This document shows positions 998 to 26,001 of a DNA stretch of 29,671 nt, in pieces. The notes under the pieces were generated by a model. The model ran no database searches and had not been told where the DNA came from. It worked only from the letters and a program-made list of their open reading frames with translations. The position numbers and the translations under genes were made by a program. Positions within the stretch are counted from its first letter, which is position 1; each line of letters begins with the position of its first letter. The stretch is from positions 1-29,671 of IMG/VR virus record IMGVR_UViG_3300042540_000639; one strand, 5' to 3'. This DNA comes from a virus.

Positions 998-1117
998 GTG
1001 AAGAAGTCTGATAAGAATCGTTGCTGGAAAGGTTACGAACCTGTAAAAGGTAAGAAGCCTTACAGCCCAGGTAGTTGTAAAAAAAGTAAAACAACTATCA
1101 AATCAAAGAAGAAGTGA
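998..1117 (+). CDS. Tiny basic Cys protein
   Basis: A 39-residue ORF with a GTG start, preceded by TTTCCCAGGAAA at about 980-991, which supplies an AGGA ribosome-binding site with about 8 nt spacing. The product is highly basic, with roughly fifteen Lys or Arg, and carries the segment CWKGYEPVKGKKPYSPGSC in its first half. Two Cys flank that Lys/Gly/Pro-rich loop. I recall similar tiny CWKGY-type proteins in other tailed phages, but their function is unknown to me. It sits between the tail tube and tape-measure candidates, so it may be a small virion or DNA-binding component. Its short length leaves some doubt that it is expressed, although the ribosome-binding site and strongly non-random composition support it. 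Confidence 0.5.
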   Translation: MKKSDKNRCWKGYEPVKGKKPYSPGSCKKSKTTIKSKKK

Positions 1118-1125
1118 GTATCACT

Positions 1126-1347
1126 ATGCCTAAGAAATCCCCCGCCAAAGGCAAATCTGTTCGCGTTCAGGTTGCAGGTAAGACTCGTTCTGTTGGTCAG
1201 AAAGGTATTACCCCGCAACCTGGAACTGCTAGAGGTGATAGGTACTGTACCAGATCATCTGGTATACCTAAGTGCAAAGATCCTCCATGCCCAAATGATA
1301 TTTCCAGGAAGCGTTGGGGATGTAAGGGCAAGAAATCCTACAAATAA
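1126..1347 (+). CDS. Small basic Cys-rich protein
   Basis: A 73-residue basic protein. The N-terminal 25 residues are Lys/Arg-rich (PKKSPAKGKS). The second half has an ordered set of Cys and aromatic residues: GTARGDRYCTRSSGI, then CKDPPCPN, then SRKRWGCKGKKS. The layout suggests a small metal-binding or disulfide-stabilised nucleic-acid-binding module. I have seen a similar RGD-YC-RS-GI ... SR--W-C-GKKS pattern in small phage proteins of unknown function, recalled without a search. The ATG at 1126 is preferred; an in-frame GTG at 1114 would overlap the stop of the previous gene. The AAGAAG upstream is a weak ribosome-binding site. Confidence 0.6.
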   Translation: MPKKSPAKGKSVRVQVAGKTRSVGQKGITPQPGTARGDRYCTRSSGIPKCKDPPCPNDISRKRWGCKGKKSYK

Positions 1348-1359
1348 CATATCCCAGGA

Positions 1360-1425
1360 ATGAACGGTAACTTCGATGGTAAACTCTTCTGGAACATTTT
1401 CAGACGGTGGAGATCAGGAGTCTAG
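1360..1425 (+). CDS. Possible 21-residue leader ORF
   Basis: ATG at 1360 directly follows ATCCCAGGA, a reasonable ribosome-binding site, and opens a 21-codon frame ending at TAG 1423-1425. The peptide starts MNGNFDGKLFW and is rich in aromatic and Arg residues. It overlaps the start of the tape-measure-like gene at 1376 in another frame; that start has no clear ribosome-binding site of its own. The small ORF may therefore load ribosomes for the larger gene by coupling. It could equally be chance. Confidence 0.25.
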   Translation: MNGNFDGKLFWNIFRRWRSGV

Positions 1426-3121
1426 TAAACTCAATGACTCCATCCGAGAGAACACTGAAAAGTTAGGTAACCTTACCAAGGTTTTATCCAGTGATTCTCC
1501 AACACTGAAAGAGATGAAGTCTAGGGCTAATGAAGTTGCTTCCAGTGAAGTACAAGCTACTGGTCGTAAGTTTGCTCTACAGCAACAAGCTCAACTCGAT
1601 AAACTCGCAGCTAACAACTTTCGAGCAACTGAAACCATCATTTCAGAATTGCTATCTAGGTTTGGTGGTACTAGCTTTTATCCTGCTCTATCTGCATTTC
1701 GTGTAGCTAGAGAATCTGTTGCAGTAGGTACTGGTAAGACTCAAAGCGAACTGGATGTCATGGACATCATTAAGTTCGTCAATGACTCTTCCAAAGAACT
1801 GCTGAACAATATGTTCACCTCGTTTGGTGAATCGATTGGTTTAGTAAAAAAGCCTATTGATGATCTAAATGCTTCTCTCCAGGAAACAGCGGAAGCAGCA
1901 GCAAAAGCAGCAGAGGAAGCAGCAAAAACAATCGATATTAAATCCATCCAAGAAGAGACTATGCCTACTCTGACAGAGTATGGTAAAGCATTTACTAAAG
2001 TTTCTCTTCCAGGAGGTATTGAGAAAGCGACAGTTGATGAACTCAACAAAGCATTAACGCTTATTCAAACAACTGATGAGTTAGCAACTAATTTTGCAGA
2101 CGTTGCTATAAAAATAGCAACAGCATTAAAAGAGATGGGTGAAGCACCTATTCCTTTTACGTTAGCTGATAAAAAAGAAAGAGAGCAATTTAAAGCAACA
2201 ACTGCTAAAGAGATGCAAGCATTCGATGTTGCTAAGAATGCTGCTATTGAAGAAAAAACAAAACCTGATGTTACTCCAGAAGCGATCAAAGCTGCGAGAA
2301 CTGCTGCTGGTATTGCAGGTTTAGGTGTTACTTCTGTTCTTTTAAGCACTGAGTTTAAAGAACTAGCTAAGGTTGCATTTCAAACTGGTACAGCAATGAA
2401 AAATGTAATTGCTGGTGCTGTATTAAATCCTCAAGGAATGTCATCAGGTACTACAGCATTACAACCACTATCAGTAGCAGCAGCAGGTTTACCAGCGATT
2501 GGTAATGTTTTAGGAGCGAGCATCGGAACTGCATTAGGCGGCCCAATAGGAGGTCTTATTGGTTCTAAGATTGGTTCCATTATAGGATCAACAGTAGGAG
2601 TACCGATTCAAGCAGCAGTAAGTATTCTTACTTCTATTGAAAATGGTGTATCACAGATTAAGGATAGTCTTGTAGGTTTTTCTCCAGATGTTACTTTAGC
2701 AATCATTGAAAGAGACTTATCATTGCTTGCTGATGATATGCGACGATCTAATCAGATTGGTGATGAAGTTGCTAGAATTACTGGAGCACAAACTAATCTA
2801 CAAATAGCATCTCGTCGTGCATTTGATAACCTAGTTGAATTAGCTGAACCATTTCTAGTTACTATTGCAAATAGTTTAGCTTTAATACTAAACGCTACTA
2901 TTGGTTCTAAAAATTTTCTTGAAGCATTTATTCAGGTAGCATTTCCTGTTTGGGGTCAAGTAGTAATTGGTTATGCAAAAAGCATAGCAGCAGGTCTTGA
3001 TACTTTAGCTGATCTATTAATTCCTAAAGCAGATATCGGTGATATAAACTCAATAGTTAATGTAAGACCTGATCCTGCTTGGTTTGGAAGAAACAATCTT
3101 AAAGTTCCAGTAGCTCCATAA
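1376..3121 (+). CDS. Tape-measure-like / injection protein
   Basis: The 581-residue protein has a hydrophilic, helical N-terminal third with Asn/Gln/Lys-rich heptad-like stretches. An Ala/Glu coiled-coil segment lies around residues 165-185 (repeated EAAAKAAEEAAK type). A Gly-zipper hydrophobic region lies around residues 375-415 (GTALGGPIGGLIGSKIG and similar), and there are further hydrophobic helices near the C terminus. Long helices combined with membrane-active segments are typical of tape-measure proteins, which span the tail tube and help DNA cross the membrane. At 581 residues it would be short for a siphovirus, so an internal virion or pore-forming injection protein is an alternative. 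The base composition becomes AT-rich from about 2050 onward. Confidence 0.5.
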   Translation: MVNSSGTFSDGGDQESSKLNDSIRENTEKLGNLTKVLSSDSPTLKEMKSRANEVASSEVQATGRKFALQQQAQLDKLAANNFRATETIISELLSRFGGTSFYPALSAFRVARESVAVGTGKTQSELDVMDIIKFVNDSSKELLNNMFTSFGESIGLVKKPIDDLNASLQETAEAAAKAAEEAAKTIDIKSIQEETMPTLTEYGKAFTKVSLPGGIEKATVDELNKALTLIQTTDELATNFADVAIKIATALKEMGEAPIPFTLADKKEREQFKATTAKEMQAFDVAKNAAIEEKTKPDVTPEAIKAARTAAGIAGLGVTSVLLSTEFKELAKVAFQTGTAMKNVIAGAVLNPQGMSSGTTALQPLSVAAAGLPAIGNVLGASIGTALGGPIGGLIGSKIGSIIGSTVGVPIQAAVSILTSIENGVSQIKDSLVGFSPDVTLAIIERDLSLLADDMRRSNQIGDEVARITGAQTNLQIASRRAFDNLVELAEPFLVTIANSLALILNATIGSKNFLEAFIQVAFPVWGQVVIGYAKSIAAGLDTLADLLIPKADIGDINSIVNVRPDPAWFGRNNLKVPVAP

Positions 3122-3138: not shown

Positions 3139-5277
3139 ATGGTTTCATATAGAGGTTATGGAGAACTATCTTACGGTAGTATAAATAATTCACTTAGTGA
3201 GTTTGGTATTTATAAGTTTCCACCTACATACACATTATCAATCAACGCCAAACCAATAATGTCTGATAATGGTGTTAATGTTAAATATAATAGGTATGAA
3301 CTTACAGTAAATTGGGTTTTACCATTTGAACTTTTAGGTGGCAGAATTAACCCTGGTCAAAACGATCCTACATCCGTTGATACAGCAGTTTTTCAAATTC
3401 AACAAATTTTAATGACACCTCGTTTAGAACTTGTGTGTAAAGCACAAGGTTTTGGTCTTTCTTTTACAAGAAATTCAGATGATGATGATAATCATGGCCC
3501 AACTCCTCTTGATTTCAAATGGAAGGTGTTAGCAACACAACGATGTGTTGAAATGTCTTGGACTGTAGCGTTTCATACATCTAATGGTATTTTTTATGAT
3601 CCTCAAAATCAATTAATAAAAAGAGGTTCAGTAATACAAGATTTTGTCTGGTCAAGGACGTATGATCTTGATGAGTTTGGTGCTGCAACAATTACCACAA
3701 CAGGATCTATTTCACAAATACAGGCTCAATGGGTTAATGCTAATACTGGTTTACCAATACCTATACCAGTTAATAGGCATGTTGATAACTGGAGATTCAT
3801 GGCTTATTTTCCAGTACCATTGTACTGCAAACGTATATCTCAAAAATTTCAATATGATCCAACAACAAAAGTGATGAATTTTACTCTTGTTGACAAAGAG
3901 TTACCTACAGAAAATGCTTATCCACCTTTAGTAGTTGATATTGATTTATCACATGAACTATCATCATCTTTAGTAGATGCAGGTAAATTCTCTGGCACTG
4001 GTTTTTTGACTTGGACTAATGTCTTCAGTGGAAGCATTACCCTTAAACCAGGAGTATCTCCTTTATACGCTTACTTCTTATTTCATTTCTATCTTCGTCA
4101 AAGAATGAACCGTGTTAATAGAGAAATCACGGTAGCTGGAGCAACTTTTGGTGAAGGTGTTGCTAAAGATGATACACAAGTACCAATTAAAACTGAAAAA
4201 GATCCTGGAACTAATGTAAATGAATCACAAGCTACTGAAAAAGTAAGAACATTACTTACTAGAGTTAGCTACAAAGAATCTTTATTCAGCAGAACACATA
4301 CATTTAAAGCTGAATACTGGGCATTATATAGCCGAGAAAATTTCATAGCTCAATCAGGTATTTTTTTACCTCTTTATAATTACGCACAAAGAGATGGTAA
4401 TGAAGTTACTTGGTATGGAGCAACTAACCAAGATGATGAACCTTGGCAAAAAGATTTTAATAGAAGTTCAAATAAATCCAGTAATAAATTAAGTGTTCAA
4501 TGGGATAGATATCAAATTTACAATGATCTTGCTGTAAAAAATAATAATTCACCTTATGGATATTTATTGTTTCAAGAAACTGGTGTAAATAGAGGCCCAT
4601 ATGGTAGTACAAAATTATTTATACCTAATGATGTAAATGCACAATCCGATGAAACCGAAATAGATATACTTGATCCATATGACTTAGATGCTTGGGATAT
4701 AGAAAGTAATATCTATTCTCAAGCTAATTACAACAACACAAAACAAGATACATATGCAGGAGCTAAAGCATACATTGATCCAGAAATATCATGGATTGAT
4801 TACAAAATAAACACAACTCTTGTTGAAGATCATAATACTACTCAAGTTGTTAGACAGTCTTATGACGCTAATGTAAAAACGGGGTTACAATCATTTAGAG
4901 ATAATAACGGTCAATACGAAGGAAAACCAAATAAGAATACTACAAAGTTTGTCCTTAACAATGCTAATACTTCTGGTGCAGATCAACCAACAGATGAAGT
5001 AGTATCTACTTTTAATGGTCAACCAAACTCTGTTGTGATTCTATCTGGTTATGCGATAAGAGCAGGTTTTCCTGTTCCTATTCCTTCAATCCTTAGCTAC
5101 CAAAATAAAGCAGTATATCGAACAGGACAGGCGATGTACTCCAACAGAATAATTAGTAAAGGTGAAATCCCTGTTTATCTTGCAACTTGGTCAATTCCAT
5201 ATTACATTGACCAAACTAAGCATCGGGATGTTTTTGCCGATCTAAAGATTAATGGCTACACAGGAGAATTAGGCTAA
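3139..5277 (+). CDS. Large virion structural protein
   Basis: A 712-residue protein rich in Asn, Tyr, Thr and short beta strands, with no signal peptide, membrane helix or catalytic motif that I recognise. The N-terminal 200 residues contain repeated aromatic strand patterns and an acidic DDDD patch near residues 115-118. Composition and position in the tail region suggest a virion component such as a baseplate, distal tail or fibre-base protein; this is inference. It is markedly AT-rich, with Asn mostly AAT and many A/T-ending codons, compared with its downstream neighbours, which may reflect separate ancestry. The start at 3139 follows a weak site. The stop overlaps the start of the next gene (TAATG). 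Confidence 0.5.
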   Translation: MVSYRGYGELSYGSINNSLSEFGIYKFPPTYTLSINAKPIMSDNGVNVKYNRYELTVNWVLPFELLGGRINPGQNDPTSVDTAVFQIQQILMTPRLELVCKAQGFGLSFTRNSDDDDNHGPTPLDFKWKVLATQRCVEMSWTVAFHTSNGIFYDPQNQLIKRGSVIQDFVWSRTYDLDEFGAATITTTGSISQIQAQWVNANTGLPIPIPVNRHVDNWRFMAYFPVPLYCKRISQKFQYDPTTKVMNFTLVDKELPTENAYPPLVVDIDLSHELSSSLVDAGKFSGTGFLTWTNVFSGSITLKPGVSPLYAYFLFHFYLRQRMNRVNREITVAGATFGEGVAKDDTQVPIKTEKDPGTNVNESQATEKVRTLLTRVSYKESLFSRTHTFKAEYWALYSRENFIAQSGIFLPLYNYAQRDGNEVTWYGATNQDDEPWQKDFNRSSNKSSNKLSVQWDRYQIYNDLAVKNNNSPYGYLLFQETGVNRGPYGSTKLFIPNDVNAQSDETEIDILDPYDLDAWDIESNIYSQANYNNTKQDTYAGAKAYIDPEISWIDYKINTTLVEDHNTTQVVRQSYDANVKTGLQSFRDNNGQYEGKPNKNTTKFVLNNANTSGADQPTDEVVSTFNGQPNSVVILSGYAIRAGFPVPIPSILSYQNKAVYRTGQAMYSNRIISKGEIPVYLATWSIPYYIDQTKHRDVFADLKINGYTGELG

Positions 5278-5582
5278 TGGCTATTGAGTTTCTTCTTCCC
5301 CCCAAAGATCAAACTACAGTCTCGGTTACCGTCGATGAGAACACCAAGATTGAAGTTGAAGTGATCGACATCGTAGAGGCTTTCCAGAGATCGCAGGAAG
5401 ACTGCGAGAAGCTAGGATCGACAGATTGGATTACTCACTTCGTCAGCAAGATGAAGAACAATCACAGTCTGAAGCTATCCAGGACTGCTGCTATGATGCT
5501 CGTCAATGTCGCAACTGGAGAGCTTGTAAAAATAAAAAAATCCTGCTTTCCAGAGGTAGAGCAATCAGGTTCTACAACCTAA
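5277..5582 (+). CDS. Tail assembly chaperone, short (G-like) product
   Basis: The zero-frame product has 101 residues and begins MAIEFLLPP. It is a small acidic/helical protein of the size expected for the short member of a G/GT-type tail assembly chaperone pair, which binds the tape measure during tail assembly. It has little recognisable sequence signature. Assignment rests on the overlapping -1 frame, the slippery A AAA AAA at 5534-5540 and the downstream stem-loop that contains this product's own stop codon (5580-5582). In most phages this pair lies upstream of the tape measure; here it lies downstream of the tape-measure candidate and just before the portal gene, which is unusual. The start overlaps the preceding stop. 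Confidence 0.6.
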   Translation: MAIEFLLPPKDQTTVSVTVDENTKIEVEVIDIVEAFQRSQEDCEKLGSTDWITHFVSKMKNNHSLKLSRTAAMMLVNVATGELVKIKKSCFPEVEQSGSTT

Positions 5583-5803
5583 CTCTACCTTTGGATGACA
5601 GAATCATCCGTTACTATGCAACCGTCATTCCTAACCTTGAGGCAGAAGAAGAACTCAAACAACGTGGTAGAGAAGGTCAGCTAACTCCTGACAAGTTTTA
5701 CTCTCTACTCATATTGTCTGGTGTTCCAGAAAAAGAGGCTGATACTGCTAGAGCAAGAATGGTAATGCAACAACTTGAGAGCAAAAGCCAATGGCAAAGG
5801 TAA
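5277..5803 (+). CDS. Tail assembly chaperone, -1 frameshift (GT-like) product
   Basis: If ribosomes slip back one base at A AAA AAA (5534-5540), the first 88 codons are joined to 87 codons in the -1 frame, giving a 175-residue protein ending at 5803. The -1 extension begins ILLSRGRAIRFYN and is rich in charged helical residues. It has no plausible start of its own at the right place, and the extension continues in open frame for 264 nt up to the portal gene, which it overlaps by 13 nt. G/GT frameshift fusions are established for lambda-like and many other tailed phages. That this pair serves the tail is inferred from that precedent. A phage protein of other function made by the same mechanism cannot be excluded. 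Confidence 0.65.
5534..5594 (+). promoter_or_regulatory. Programmed -1 ribosomal frameshift signal
   Basis: Slippery heptamer A AAA AAA occupies 5534-5540 in the correct zero-frame phase (ata aaa aaa tcc). A 9-nt spacer (5541-5549) follows. Then comes a 12-bp stem: CCAGAGGTAGAG (5550-5561) pairs with CTCTACCTTTGG (5583-5594) with one G-U wobble. The 21-nt loop contains a nested 5-bp stem, AGGTT (5568-5572) with AACCT (5576-5580). The zero-frame stop TAA lies inside the loop. All parts match the textbook arrangement for -1 frameshifting. Confidence 0.8.
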
Positions 5804-7089
5804 CTAAACAAGATTTACTATCGGTTCAGTCTGCTCCTTATGAGCCATTGGGTTTTGTCAATAACTATTATGGTTATGCCCCCCATCACAGACCTATCTT
5901 CTCACGATTTGCGATTCAGCAAATGCTGGAAGATCCGAGGATCTGCTTCGGCTTGGAGTTGATTAAAGGCCCGATCCATTCCTTTACGAAATTCTTCACT
6001 GAGGAGGAATCCAAGAATCCTGCTGTTCATCAGTGGATTGTGGCTTCCGATACTTCATTCCCCTATGTCGTTAAATGCGACGATAAAGAAGTGACCGAGT
6101 TCATAGCAACGTCACTGCGTCGATTCTGGCAAGTAGGAGCGATTAAAGCCCTGAACGCAATCGAATGGGGTTACAGTGCAGGTGAAGTTATCTATCGTCA
6201 ATCGAAGGCTGATAGTCGCTCCAAGAGGCTGTACTTTGATAACCTCAAGGACTTCTACGCTCCTGACTGTTCAGCAGTCACACAGAACGGTGGTCTAGTA
6301 GGGGTAGAGGTAAACTCTGGCAACCTCAAAGAGTTTTACTTAGCTATCCCTAAAGTCTTCTATCACGTTCACCAGCGAGAGAAGAATCGCCATTACGGTT
6401 TATCCCGCCTATTCGGTGCATACGCAGCTTGGTGGGAAATCTGGACTGAGGGTGGGGTTAGGGACGTTCGACGCTCCTGGTACTATCGTAATGCGTTTGG
6501 TGGGGGATCAATGTTCTACCCAGTCGGTTACACTCAAATCGATGGTGGTAGCAAGATCAACAATCGTGATCTAGCAATTGAAATGCTATCTAAGTTACGT
6601 TCTGGTGGTTACATGGTATTCCCGAACCAATCAGATCAGAACGGTAAGCAATTGTGGCAATATGACCCACCTGTTTCGGCTGTTGCTCCACAAGGTTTGG
6701 AAACCTATATGGCAACGCTCACTGCCGAGGAACTAGAGGGTCTTGGTATTCCTCCAGAAGTCATCCAGGGTGGTGGAGGTGGTCTAGGTGCTGCTACAGG
6801 TCGTAAGATCCCGATGGTAGCTTTTTACTCCACACTCCAGAAGACCGTGGATTATCTGATTGGGGATTTCGTCAATCAGATTCTAAACTTCCTGATCCCG
6901 CTGAACTTCAACAAGCTACCTGATTTTGAGATCGTACCATTAATTCCTATTAATGCATACGGACAAACCAATCAAGAAGGTGTACCTGCTGCTCCTTCCC
7001 AGAAACTTGCGGGAGAGGTTTCCAAAGGTTCGCCTACACCTAAAGTAGAGAAGACAAGTTCAGGAACTCCTGCTACTTTGAGTACCTAA
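5791..7089 (+). CDS. Phage portal protein (Mu gp29 / DUF935-like)
   Basis: The 432-residue protein matches the style of phage portal proteins. Residues 35-75 hold an ECF-like FxxQQMLxDPRIxFGL segment. A RSWYYRN helix and a WEIWTEGG region lie near residues 210-235. The GLETYMATL-AEELEGLGIPPEVIQGG segment near residues 305-330 resembles the portal crown/stem transition of the DUF935 family. The protein would form the dodecameric ring at the head-tail vertex through which DNA enters and leaves. The C-terminal 45 residues are Pro/Ser/Thr-rich and probably disordered. The gene overlaps the frameshift extension by 13 nt. Finding the portal downstream of tail genes, with no terminase nearby, shows a rearranged virion module. 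Confidence 0.75.
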   Translation: MAKVTKQDLLSVQSAPYEPLGFVNNYYGYAPHHRPIFSRFAIQQMLEDPRICFGLELIKGPIHSFTKFFTEEESKNPAVHQWIVASDTSFPYVVKCDDKEVTEFIATSLRRFWQVGAIKALNAIEWGYSAGEVIYRQSKADSRSKRLYFDNLKDFYAPDCSAVTQNGGLVGVEVNSGNLKEFYLAIPKVFYHVHQREKNRHYGLSRLFGAYAAWWEIWTEGGVRDVRRSWYYRNAFGGGSMFYPVGYTQIDGGSKINNRDLAIEMLSKLRSGGYMVFPNQSDQNGKQLWQYDPPVSAVAPQGLETYMATLTAEELEGLGIPPEVIQGGGGGLGAATGRKIPMVAFYSTLQKTVDYLIGDFVNQILNFLIPLNFNKLPDFEIVPLIPINAYGQTNQEGVPAAPSQKLAGEVSKGSPTPKVEKTSSGTPATLST

Positions 7090-9006
7090 ATGTTTAAGCT
7101 AGAGATTGGTTCTGTATCCATCAAGTGTATTGATCCTATTGCTGTTAAACAAGCAATGGAGAGCATTGGCGTAGACAGTTCCGTTATCTCTAAATGCAAC
7201 TCAGTAGAACTAAAGCATGGGCCTCGACCAGGGACAGGTCATTTCCTCATGCTGCAATCTGATTTTGATGCTTTAGCAGCAGAGATTGCTACATTTACCA
7301 GTAGTGCTTTCTTTCCTAATCTAACGATTAAAGCAGTTGATAACTTTAATAATGGTGCTGCCTATAGTTTTGGTAATTGGACTTTAGCCACTGCTAACAC
7401 CATTTATGGTCATCCAAGCAATCCTGATGCTATTGTTTATGTTACTGCTGAAGATGTTCGTCATTGGTTAGCCAGAACATACACACCAGCAAAGACATAT
7501 AATAAGATTCGTCATACTGAAAAAAACGTAGGTGTACCAGCAGGTACAAACAGATATTATAGCGATACCCTAAACGGAAGTAATCTTTGGACAATTAATG
7601 ATATGCTTGATGATATGGTGACAGGATATTCTGCTCCTATCACTTGGACATCATCATCGTTATTAGCCGACTATTACTTTTTCAATGTCATATCTGGTGA
7701 TATGACAATTCTTGATTGGTATTCCAGAGTAGCACAAACATTACGTTGTTATTATTACGTCGATACTGCCGGTCAGGTTGTATTTGATGACGCTATGTTT
7801 GATGAAGCAGATATTAGTAGTGCCCCTACTATTTATCATATGAAAAATCTAATGATTAACCCACGCAATACTGGGTCACCATTAGAGTCACAAAAATGGA
7901 CATTAGTATTTGTTACTGCTGAAAGCCTGGTAGGCAAGCATTACAACAATGAATCAGATATTATTGATCCTACAAATCAAAATAAATATCCAGTAAACAA
8001 TTGGCAGACAGAAATAGTACCATTTACTCAAGGTGCGCAGCAAGCTAATCTTCCTCATCACTCTGCTACTACAATACCACCAACACCCCCAAGTGGTTCC
8101 CCTACTACTTTGTTCTTACCAAGTTCAGCATATTGGTCTAACCAAGTCAGTCAAATAGCTCAACGAGTTAGAACGAATATTCATCCAGAATACCGATATG
8201 TAAATATACGAGGTTACTTTGCTTATACACCTCGGTTCCAAGGTGATGTGATTGTTTATTCCAATTATGGTGATGGGTTAGCAACTAGCATCTATGGTGT
8301 GAAAGAACATGAACTTGATTACCTGACTCCAGAGTTTAAGCACTATGAGAAAGAACTAATCAGAGAATACTGGAAGTTCATTCTTAAATCACCTTTCATT
8401 TATCCAGAAGGTTATTCCTATGGATATGCTACAGCAGACATTTACTATCCAATTCTTGATGTACCAAGAAGAACATCTGTTACTATTTTTGATTTAACTA
8501 AATCATTACGAGGAATTACAGTTGGCTCTAAAGGTACTTGTCATCAGATAGGTGCTTACTATTATGCTAATTGCTGTACTGAAGCAGTTAGTAGTTCGTC
8601 TTCGATTAGCCAACCTTCTAGCTCCAGTTCATCTAGTTCTAGCTCTTCCAGTTCCAGCAGTTCGTCTAGTTCGTCTAGCTCATCCAGTTCTAGTTCTTCA
8701 AGTTCTAGTTCTAGCAGTTCTAGTTCGTCAGCATCATCCGGTTCTAGTGCCTCCAGTGGTTCTGAAGGTTCTAGTGGATCTGGATCAGGTAGTGGGTCTG
8801 GATCGGGCAGCGGTTCTGGTTCTGACGGTGGTGGTGGTACTTGCGAAGGATTCTGTTCTTATACTTGGAATGGGTCATCGTGGGATTTAGTACAAAACTT
8901 CTGTGAAGGTACTCACCCACAATGCCTATGTAGTTATCCTTCCGGCCCTGGTATATTCCCAGGAGAAGGTCGAATTACAATTTGTGTTGGTGGTGGAGCG
9001 ATATAG
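7090..9006 (+). CDS. Virion stalk protein with poly-Ser linker and Cys-rich tip
   Basis: The 638-residue protein starts one base after the portal stop. Residues 1 to about 495 form a large mixed domain rich in Tyr, Asn and Asp, consistent with a structural adsorption or baseplate protein. From about residue 500 to 560 there is an almost pure Ser run, then a Gly-Ser repeat and an acidic/Gly hinge. A compact tip of about 50 residues with seven Cys follows (CEGFCSYTWNGSSWDL and later CEG, CLC, C). The Ser codons are mixed (agt, agc, tct, tcc, tca, tcg), so the protein sequence is selected and not a DNA repeat. I infer a surface-exposed rod with a disulfide- or metal-stabilised knob. Two glycosyltransferase genes lie downstream. 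No enzymatic motif is seen. Confidence 0.55.
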   Translation: MFKLEIGSVSIKCIDPIAVKQAMESIGVDSSVISKCNSVELKHGPRPGTGHFLMLQSDFDALAAEIATFTSSAFFPNLTIKAVDNFNNGAAYSFGNWTLATANTIYGHPSNPDAIVYVTAEDVRHWLARTYTPAKTYNKIRHTEKNVGVPAGTNRYYSDTLNGSNLWTINDMLDDMVTGYSAPITWTSSSLLADYYFFNVISGDMTILDWYSRVAQTLRCYYYVDTAGQVVFDDAMFDEADISSAPTIYHMKNLMINPRNTGSPLESQKWTLVFVTAESLVGKHYNNESDIIDPTNQNKYPVNNWQTEIVPFTQGAQQANLPHHSATTIPPTPPSGSPTTLFLPSSAYWSNQVSQIAQRVRTNIHPEYRYVNIRGYFAYTPRFQGDVIVYSNYGDGLATSIYGVKEHELDYLTPEFKHYEKELIREYWKFILKSPFIYPEGYSYGYATADIYYPILDVPRRTSVTIFDLTKSLRGITVGSKGTCHQIGAYYYANCCTEAVSSSSSISQPSSSSSSSSSSSSSSSSSSSSSSSSSSSSSSSSSSSSSSASSGSSASSGSEGSSGSGSGSGSGSGSGSGSDGGGGTCEGFCSYTWNGSSWDLVQNFCEGTHPQCLCSYPSGPGIFPGEGRITICVGGGAI

Positions 9007-9013
9007 GTAGAAT

Positions 9014-9538
9014 ATGTATACAGATTGCAAATACGAACAATGTGAAGGTGACGTATCTTACTGTAAAATTGCTTACGAACTTTCTGCAATCAAATCAGTA
9101 ACATCCAAAGAAGCATGTGAGCATTGCAGTAAAATCCCTAATTCCAGAACACATAACTCGGTAACTGCTTCTTTAGCATTACAAGCAGTACGAACTCACA
9201 AACCAGAAATGGTTAAAGAGTACATCTATCAAATCAAACATCTTCTTACTACTGAAGAACCCGATCAAAAAGTAGTTGGTGAAGGCCCAGGTACAGAACT
9301 TACTAAACTTCTTTCTTGGTTTGCCAAAGACACTCCAGGATGTAAGTGCAAAGACCATGCGAATCTTATGAACGTATGGGGTGTGGATGGTTGTAGAAAT
9401 AATATGGAAACCATATTACAATGGCTTGAAACAGCAGCAAAAGATCGTGGAATACCTTTCATCAAACCTCTTGCTAAAAGTCTCGTCAATCTCGCTATCA
9501 AACGAGCAGAGTCATGTACACCGAAAGATGCTTCATAA
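9014..9538 (+). CDS. Hypothetical Cys-rich protein
   Basis: The protein has 174 residues and I do not recognise its function. The N-terminal 40 residues carry five Cys in C-x4-C-x6-C and C-x2-C arrangements (residues 5, 10, 17, 36, 39), suggesting a metal site. Near residues 110-130 there is a GCKCKDHANLMNVWGVDGC motif, and downstream the protein is helical and basic. The G-C-x-C-x6-M-x-x-W-G-x-x-x-C pattern is one I associate with planctomycete phage/prophage proteins near glycosyltransferases, recalled and not searched. The last 25 nt overlap the next gene, so coupling to the glycosyltransferases is likely. A role in glycan or virion decoration is only inferred. Confidence 0.5.
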   Translation: MYTDCKYEQCEGDVSYCKIAYELSAIKSVTSKEACEHCSKIPNSRTHNSVTASLALQAVRTHKPEMVKEYIYQIKHLLTTEEPDQKVVGEGPGTELTKLLSWFAKDTPGCKCKDHANLMNVWGVDGCRNNMETILQWLETAAKDRGIPFIKPLAKSLVNLAIKRAESCTPKDAS

Positions 9539-10212
9539 TCAATTTAGATGTCCGTAGGGATCGATTACAGCAGTTTTATGATCGATTACCCAAGAACTTT
9601 CCTTGGGGCATTCCAGAGCGTTGGCAAGCGATTCATGGGGATTCAGTAAAGCATCCTGATTGGTGGACAGCAGGTAACGGTGCGTGGGGATGCTACAAGT
9701 CTCATCTTAATATCCTTGAATACTGCCTGAATAATCGAATTGAGTCATATACTGTCTTTGAAGATGACGCATTCTTTCGAGAAGATTTCAACACCAGTAT
9801 GCTCACTTTCTATGAGCATCTTCCAGAATGGGAGATGGTCTATCTTGGTGGACAACTCTTGCATGTTGAAGGTAATCCTCCTGAAGAAGTTAATCCTTTT
9901 GTATATATTCCCTATAACGTAAACAGAACACACGCCTTCATGGTGAATACTCGCAAAGGAATGGAGATTCTCTATAAATTCCTAAATGCAACACCCTTTG
10001 AGACTCACTACCATATCGACCATCATTTAGGATTGCTACACGAACGTAAGAAGCTAAAACTGTTCTGCCCTCATAAGTGGCTTGTAGGTCAATGTGAATC
10101 CACTAGCAACATCAGTGGTCAGCAAACAGGATCAACCTTCTTCGATGATCCTCATCAATGCATCAAATATAAAAAAGATCCTTTTGCAGGTTTAGGAACA
10201 GCAAAGTTATGA
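9514..10212 (+). CDS. GT25-like glycosyltransferase
   Basis: The 232-residue protein begins with a FIINLDVRRDRLQQF motif (residues 7-21), characteristic of family 25 glycosyltransferases (LPS/collagen-type galactosyltransferases). This is followed by WQAIHGD, GAWGCYKSHLNILEYC (residues 52-68) and an acidic VFEDDAFF segment near residue 82 that supplies the metal-binding acidic motif. Such enzymes transfer a sugar from a nucleotide donor to protein or glycan acceptors. It has no signal peptide, so it acts in the cytoplasm. It overlaps the Cys-rich gene upstream by 25 nt and the next glycosyltransferase by 4 nt, forming one transcription unit with the Ser-rich stalk gene. Its acceptor is unknown; virion protein glycosylation is my inference. 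Confidence 0.8.
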   Translation: MYTERCFIINLDVRRDRLQQFYDRLPKNFPWGIPERWQAIHGDSVKHPDWWTAGNGAWGCYKSHLNILEYCLNNRIESYTVFEDDAFFREDFNTSMLTFYEHLPEWEMVYLGGQLLHVEGNPPEEVNPFVYIPYNVNRTHAFMVNTRKGMEILYKFLNATPFETHYHIDHHLGLLHERKKLKLFCPHKWLVGQCESTSNISGQQTGSTFFDDPHQCIKYKKDPFAGLGTAKL

Positions 10213-21027: not shown

Positions 21028-21355
21028 CAGTGTTTATTATCTTAACACTCGGATTCTCCAATACCCTGCACCGAACAGTCCCGTAACGATTGCTTCGGTG
21101 CAGGGTTTTACATTTAAAACTGACCAGCTTTACTCCCCATCCGTAGAGCAAGCCTACATGGATCAACTCAACCAACTACGTCACAAATTCGCTACTCGAC
21201 CAGCTATCGACACACTCACCCACGATGTCATTTCTGCATCTCATCTGGAACTTCTCGCTAAAGAAGTCCGAGCAGGTAAAATCGATTGCAACAGTGTCAC
21301 TCTTATGCAGCACCCCAAGAACGAAGGTGTTGTCATTCAAATTCATTTAAAGTAA
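21020..21355 (+). CDS. Hypothetical protein after primase-helicase
   Basis: The ATG at 21020 follows CTAAGGA; an in-frame TTG lies one codon earlier. The 111-residue product is mostly helical after residue 35, with a SVEQAYMDQLNQLRHKF segment, and has no recognised motif. The gene starts inside the last codons of the primase-helicase, so it is coupled to it. A perfect 13-bp inverted repeat lies within codons 15-29. Because that hairpin is coded as protein, the repeat is unlikely to be an ordinary intergenic terminator. Function unknown; a replication accessory factor is a guess from position. Confidence 0.6.
   Translation: MSDSVYYLNTRILQYPAPNSPVTIASVQGFTFKTDQLYSPSVEQAYMDQLNQLRHKFATRPAIDTLTHDVISASHLELLAKEVRAGKIDCNSVTLMQHPKNEGVVIQIHLK
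21063..21111 (+). promoter_or_regulatory. Intragenic hairpin, terminator- or attenuator-like
   Basis: ACCCTGCACCGAA (21063-21075) is the exact reverse complement of TTCGGTGCAGGGT (21094-21106). The two arms are separated by 18 nt and TTTTA follows. The structure lies in the first third of the 21020 gene, 36 nt after the primase-helicase stop. It would act as a terminator or attenuator at the end of the replication block, or as mRNA structure. Confidence 0.6.
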
Positions 21356-24687: not shown

Positions 24688-26001
24688 ATGCCTAAACGTA
24701 CTAAAGTAAAATCAGAAGACATCGGTGATCTAGTCTTAGAATACCGCGATCCCAGAGAACTCAAAGCGAACGAAAAAAACTGGAGACAACATCCCAGGAG
24801 ACAACGCCAAGCCTATCAAGCTCTCAAAGCTAGAGTAGGTTGGGCAGGTGCATGTCTCTACAACACTCGCACTGGTAGACTCGTAGATGGTCACATGCGT
24901 GTTGATGAAGCGATCAAGACTGGAGAAGCAACTGTACCTACTCTCGTTGGTTCCTGGACAGAAGAACAAGAGAACCTCCTACTCGCCCAGCTAGATCCTA
25001 TTGGCTCTCTAGCAGTCACTAACAATGAAGCACTTGCATCTCTTACCAGTGCCAATCAAAAAGCCTTAACCGATCTCAGCAACGATAACGACCGTAGACT
25101 TGCACAGCTTAATCAAGACCTCCAGGCTCTCACCGAACAAGAATCAGCAGCACCATTTATTCCACAGTCTACACCCATCAGGAAACCCAAAGAGAAGGAA
25201 GAAGAACCAGTAAAGACTGTTCCCGATGAAAACGATACTGCCTATGTTCCTCCAGAAGATGATAGGGATATCGTTCGTGAAATCATCCATGATGATGTTC
25301 GCTTCCCATCCACCGATACTCGACTGATTCCACTACCGCTACAAATCCCTGATCTTCTTCCAGAGTTCATCGCAACAGTCGATATGTTGCCTCATCAAAC
25401 TTTCAATCGAAGTAGATCGCAAGACACCACTGATCCTAAGACCTACTACTGTATCTCAGCAGTACCTTATCCAGACGACAGAGAAGGTGGCACTCTAGGC
25501 TTCTTCTCCGAAGACTATCGCTTTGAGCATGTGTGGAACTTCTCAGCGAACTTCCTCAGAGAACTCATGGATGGTGACTGGCAATGTGTTGTCACTCCTG
25601 ACTTCTCTAGTTTTGACATTGCTCCTTTCCCAGAAAAGCTATGGGCACTTTACCGTTCCCGCTGGTGTGGTCGTTACTGGCAAGGAATGTCGATGTACAT
25701 CATCCCCTGTATCCAGTATATGCAGGTTGGTGATGCTGATATGACTATTCCTCTGTCTATCGAAACACTACCCACACCCTGCAAGACTATTGCTCTACAG
25801 ACTCGATCCCTAACCGATTACAAAGGACTAGCCAATATCATTAATTATGCTGTTGAGCATAAAGGTGTTGAGGGTGTATTAATCTACGGTGGTGCTACTA
25901 AGAAAAAATACTTGCATGGTTATATTACTAACCAAGCAGAAATAGTATATATTCCAGACTTTATGACCGACCGTAAACGTGTTTTAAAGGCAGAGCAGTA
26001 A
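24688..26001 (+). CDS. ParB-N domain fused to DUF4417-like domain
   Basis: The 437-residue protein begins with a ParB-N/Srx-like nuclease fold: DPRELKANEKNWRQHP near residues 16-35 and VDGHMRVDEA near residues 66-75, the typical GxxR-type motif. A Glu/Pro-rich linker follows. The C-terminal domain from about residue 215 to 420 resembles DUF4417: TPDFSSFDI near 300, LWALYRSRWCGRYWQG near 313-328, and a closing GVLIYGG strand. ParB-N domains occur in phage proteins that bind or cut DNA; DUF4417 function is unknown to me. The fusion of the two is unusual in my experience. AGGAG lies 8 nt before the ATG. It may act in DNA processing or partition-like control, inferred. Confidence 0.6.
   Translation: MPKRTKVKSEDIGDLVLEYRDPRELKANEKNWRQHPRRQRQAYQALKARVGWAGACLYNTRTGRLVDGHMRVDEAIKTGEATVPTLVGSWTEEQENLLLAQLDPIGSLAVTNNEALASLTSANQKALTDLSNDNDRRLAQLNQDLQALTEQESAAPFIPQSTPIRKPKEKEEEPVKTVPDENDTAYVPPEDDRDIVREIIHDDVRFPSTDTRLIPLPLQIPDLLPEFIATVDMLPHQTFNRSRSQDTTDPKTYYCISAVPYPDDREGGTLGFFSEDYRFEHVWNFSANFLRELMDGDWQCVVTPDFSSFDIAPFPEKLWALYRSRWCGRYWQGMSMYIIPCIQYMQVGDADMTIPLSIETLPTPCKTIALQTRSLTDYKGLANIINYAVEHKGVEGVLIYGGATKKKYLHGYITNQAEIVYIPDFMTDRKRVLKAEQ

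Follow-up and report, generated by a model that had tools for sequence, protein, structure and literature searches.

Tail genes of long-tailed phages usually run in the order tail tube, G/GT, tape measure and the rest of the tail. Xu, Hendrix and Duda are said to have described, in 2004, the G/GT tail assembly chaperones of lambda together with counterparts in other long-tailed phages. Most long-tailed phages have a G/GT-like pair; in the lambda model, copies of the short form cover the tape measure, and the tail-tube protein is brought in by the less abundant extended form (PMC5009743). The gp93/gp94 chaperone pair of phiCbK is produced by a -1 frameshift at AAAAAAC and precedes the tape measure gene (PMC3556154).

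We analyzed a pair of overlapping reading frames in a 29.7-kb virus record (IMGVR_UViG_3300042540_000639, the whole of which we call the window) that shares this design and departs from its usual location. As in lambda, a small 0-frame protein has a -1 slippery heptamer near the 3' end of its gene, an extension of about 90 residues follows, the two products have a common N-terminus, and the phage is long-tailed and has no second candidate pair. Unlike lambda G/GT, which lies between tail tube and tape measure, the present pair comes after the tape measure and adjoins the portal; it has no detectable sequence or fold relation to G/GT, and it travels with the portal in recombination. The phiCbK heptamer is the same as that of four relatives of the window (L004-L007), and in phiCbK, as in these phages, portal and large terminase lie apart. 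The tape measure gene comes after the pair in phiCbK and before it here, and comparison with the phage collection revealed no sequence relation of the present pair to any phage.

Six IMG/VR contigs (L003-L008) resolve with the window into three lineages. L003 groups with the window, the pair and portal being 98-100% identical. L004-L007 form a second lineage; they do not differ from each other over the pair, and their portal is 70% identical to that of the window. The third lineage is L008, the most distant relative, with a portal 62% identical to the window's. Searches of isolated phages and of bacterial genomes found no homologues of the pair, and searching IMG/VR with other queries gave no further lineage reaching it.

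The frameshift signal in the window

The two frames are arranged for a -1 slip. The 0-frame gene (5277-5582) follows an AGGAG Shine-Dalgarno sequence at 5262-5266 (anti-Shine-Dalgarno pairing of -7.4 kcal/mol versus a window median of -4.2) and encodes a short product of 101 residues. Its codons at the slip site read ATA AAA AAA TCC, placing A_AAA_AAA (5534-5540) in the correct X_XXY_YYZ phase. Reading after the slip would continue as ATC CTG CTT to a TAA at 5801-5803, so that the -1 frame (5540-5803, 87 residues plus stop) would complete a 175-residue fusion. An earlier sequence-only reading had proposed these two frames, the phase of the heptamer and products of 101 and 175 residues; the frames and the phase are as claimed, and both lengths were reproduced from the reading frames. 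These features, the RNA stem and the tail and portal genes described below all lie on the plus strand.

We scanned the window and two related genomes, about 39,000 codons in all, for in-phase X_XXY_YYZ heptamers. The scan found 146. In only five does the -1 frame stay open for at least 100 nt after the 0-frame stop, and the pair's slip site accounts for three of these, one per lineage. The other two are T_TTA_AAG heptamers near gene ends (window 21346-21352 and 25983-25989), where the -1 frames extend 149 and 221 nt beyond the stop; the same scan did not flag them at the corresponding genes of the relatives.

RNA folding predicts a strong structure downstream of the heptamer. A 13-bp stem with one G-U pair joins a 5' arm at 5549-5561 to a 3' arm at 5583-5595, both arms being assigned from the folding and from stem comparison with the relatives. 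It is enclosed by an additional 3-bp outer helix and contains a 5-bp inner hairpin at 5567-5580 (5567-5571 with 5576-5580). The minimum free energy is -27.2 kcal/mol versus a shuffled mean of -13.5 (z -5.0), and none of 200 shuffles folds as well. The stem and nested inner stem seen in the sequence-only reading hold up, with altered sizes: the stem has 13 rather than 12 bp, so the spacer from the heptamer is 8 rather than 9 nt. The 0-frame stop (5580-5582) falls inside the loop as described there, within the outer stem; its first nucleotide belongs to the pair that closes the inner hairpin, and the rest of it is unpaired. An RNA motif search of Rfam gave no match.

The signal resembles the frameshift cassette of E. 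coli dnaX, in which an A run in A_AAA_AAN and a downstream stem serve to make a truncated product. The A run and stem are shared, and the window likewise has an upstream Shine-Dalgarno-like GGAGAG (5517-5522), 11 nt before the heptamer. The gene is unrelated to dnaX and its product is extended rather than truncated. No GGAG-like element was seen upstream of the heptamer in L004 or L008, and we therefore claim no upstream Shine-Dalgarno-like stimulator.

Conservation across three lineages

Heptamer and stem differ in sequence among the lineages. L004-L007 have A_AAA_AAC at the aligned place and a strong stem of their own in the same register (z -3.8). In L008 the heptamer is A_AAA_AAA and forms part of eight consecutive A's, and folding against shuffles detected no strong structure downstream of its heptamer (z -0.1). 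Downstream structure at 5-9 nt is present in the window, L003 and L004-L007. Stem pairs are mostly kept among the window, L003 and L004, with one two-sided change from G-C to A-U in the main stem; relative to the window, L004 has lost two main-stem pairs and several inner-hairpin pairs. Since the comparison covers only three sequences and two of these are almost the same, the covariation lends support and does not decide the matter.

Both protein halves are conserved across the three lineages. The predicted products have 94 and 172 residues in L004 and 111 and 175 in L008. Substitutions peak at third codon positions of the 0 frame before the heptamer and of the -1 frame after it, a pattern that is clear for the window versus L004 and weak against L008.

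Other routes to these two frames fit the comparison poorly. In the window (5426) and in L004, a TTG codon lies ahead of the heptamer in the -1 frame and could serve separate overlapping genes in which the -1 protein has its own start. No such start exists in L003, where the -1 frame lacks any start codon ahead of the slip site, or in L008, where that frame opens about 6 nt before the heptamer and offers no start in the 120 nt after it; independent initiation is thus implausible in both. An assembly error is countered by the recurrence of the 0/-1 layout in independently assembled contigs of three lineages. With a strong stem beside the heptamer in two of three lineages as well, it is highly improbable that there is no functional frameshift here. 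Slippage by RNA polymerase rather than the ribosome would give the same fusion through an added A. Runs of seven (window) and eight (L008) A's can promote it, and L008 combines the longest run with no strong stem. Polymerase slippage requires neither ribosomal phase nor stem, however, and L004-L007 keep the phase, and a strong stem at standard spacing, around only six A's, which leaves the transcriptional route with very little likelihood.

Because the arrangement is kept in three lineages despite their differences in heptamer and stem, we consider a programmed -1 ribosomal frameshift at A_AAA_AAA very likely; slippage in vivo and its efficiency are deduced from sequence. The sequence-only reading had named, as evidence that would count against it, relatives that lack both heptamer and stem while keeping the frames separate. 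No such relative appeared; only the stem is missing, in L008.

Products and gene neighborhood

The products match no protein family in the libraries searched. We folded the two halves of the fusion separately: the short product is predicted to form a beta-hairpin followed by three helices (pLDDT 86.9) and the extension to form four helices (pLDDT 78.7). A hairpin followed by helices occurs among tail chaperones and is not diagnostic of them. Searches of Pfam, PHROGs and NCBIfam with both halves gave no family match, a profile search of PDB sequences matched neither half, and Foldseek fold searches with each half returned nothing significant. No known tail chaperone is matched by sequence or fold, the alignment being shallow and such chaperones widely diverged. 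Weak matches to PHROG 2725 'acetyl-CoA acetyltransferase' (E 0.04), DUF705 (E 0.013) and Penicillinase_R (E 0.05) were judged to be chance. We also disregarded the best BFVD structure match, an uncharacterized phage protein (E 0.011), and PDB structure rows with Z up to 4.5, mostly DNA-binding domains.

The surrounding genes are those of a long-tailed phage, as indicated by a tape measure, a head-tail adaptor and a major head protein. Gene order in the relatives is large terminase, head decoration, major head protein, head-tail adaptor, tail-tube candidate, tape measure, large protein, frameshift pair and portal. The window's tail-tube candidate (480-977) was assigned from position and size; it is 60-72% identical in the relatives and has no decisive family match. 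The tape measure candidate (1376-3121, 581 residues) matches PHROG 167 at E 0.0047, and its homologue in a 57-kb relative does so at E 9e-8. Directly upstream of the pair lies a 712-residue protein (3139-5277), homologous in all relatives and lacking a family match, which to judge from its position is probably a tail protein. The portal gene (5791-7089) shares its first 13 nt with the end of the fusion, and its assignment is solid, resting on a match to PF06074 (Portal_Mu) above cut-off. The position that had been called unusual from the sequence alone, after the tape measure candidate and before the portal, is confirmed and kept in all lineages; one more large gene (the 712-residue one in the window) lies between the tape measure and the pair, and the portal comes directly after the pair. 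Farther on, window 7090-9006 encodes a 638-residue protein with a long serine run and then a Gly/Ser repeat near its C-terminus. A glycosyltransferase family 25 gene (PF01755) at 9514-10212 lies directly 3' of the structural module and is 73% identical in an L004-type relative.

The slot between tail-tube and tape measure genes is the usual though not strictly defining position of G/GT, and in no lineage does the pair occupy it. A G/GT pair in that slot was ruled out: it holds only two small Lys/Cys-rich ORFs in the window and small Lys/Cys-rich ORFs in a 37-kb relative, and the 57-kb relative, with a gap of 2 nt from tail-tube candidate to tape measure, has no room for one. Of the two ORFs in the window (999-1347), one has the motif CWKGYEPVKGKKPYSPGSCKK; the other, of about 73 residues with several Cys, is 86% identical in an L004-type relative. 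Slot inspection and the heptamer scan found no other G/GT-like frameshift pair in these phages. With the slot filled by small ORFs or 2 nt wide, no other pair was found competing for the chaperone role.

Function of the pair and its link to the portal

The best functional reading, which architecture and context make moderately probable, is that of a displaced pair acting in the manner of G/GT tail chaperones. The pair has the G/GT layout of a short protein and a C-terminally extended -1 form, with the heptamer near the 3' end. Ribosomes would slip by -1 at A_AAA_AAA, stimulated by the downstream stem-loop, and one start would yield two proteins, one abundant and of 101 residues, the other a minor fusion of 175 residues whose helical extension accounts for 87. 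Many short copies would coat the tape measure protein, the rarer extended form would recruit the tail-tube subunit, and both forms would leave before the virion is complete. The displaced chaperone suggested in the sequence-only reading stands as this functional reading and gained no match from the Pfam, PHROGs, NCBIfam, PDB-sequence or Foldseek searches. We do not claim membership of the G/GT family, because the pair is not in the usual position and no sequence or fold match identifies it. Against the chaperone reading are the negative family and fold searches, the atypical position after the tape measure, the inheritance with the portal, and L008, which has no strong stem.

Recombination ties the pair to the portal. 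The tape measure proteins of the window and L003 are 83% identical and the 712-residue proteins 54%; protein identity rises to 98-99% for the pair's two frames and 100% for the portal, and is 66% for the next gene. The boundary is sharp and falls exactly at the pair's start codon, delimiting a block at 5277-7089. That this block is 98-100% identical while the tail genes have diverged implies that the pair was inherited with the portal and not with the tail genes on which it would act.

Alternatively, the frameshift would be real and its products would serve the portal or the head-tail connection rather than tail-tube polymerization, for example by assisting portal assembly, with the extended form a rare variant. 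In all three lineages the pair lies immediately before the portal and shares 13 nt with it, it recombined together with the portal while neighboring tail genes diverged, and the family searches found no tail chaperone match. A single recombination breakpoint says little about function, however; the layout and sizes of the pair are those of G/GT, and no other G/GT-like pair was found in these phages, though most long-tailed phages have one. On this evidence a portal role is doubtful. Less likely still is a translational link, in which portal synthesis would depend both on how efficiently ribosomes shift frame and on its coupling to the rare extended protein, and the frameshift would set two stoichiometries at once. 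The fusion's TAA occupies portal nucleotides 11-13 in all three lineages, and only ribosomes that had slipped into the -1 frame would terminate across the portal start. The portal Shine-Dalgarno is weak in the window (-2.7 kcal/mol), almost absent in L004 (-0.1) and good in L008 (-6.1), where a strong frameshift stem is lacking. Together, the recombination block, the stop/start overlap and the weak portal Shine-Dalgarno keep a portal-linked role or translational coupling under consideration beside the displaced chaperone.

The mechanism is of a known kind and operates here in an unusual setting, and none of the libraries searched contains a match to the protein family. The locus adds to the tailed phages a conserved orphan frameshift gene pair in an unusual place. 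If the pair is a tail chaperone, G/GT pairs cannot safely be located by adjacency to the tape measure. If it serves the portal, stoichiometry set by frameshifting would extend beyond tail assembly.
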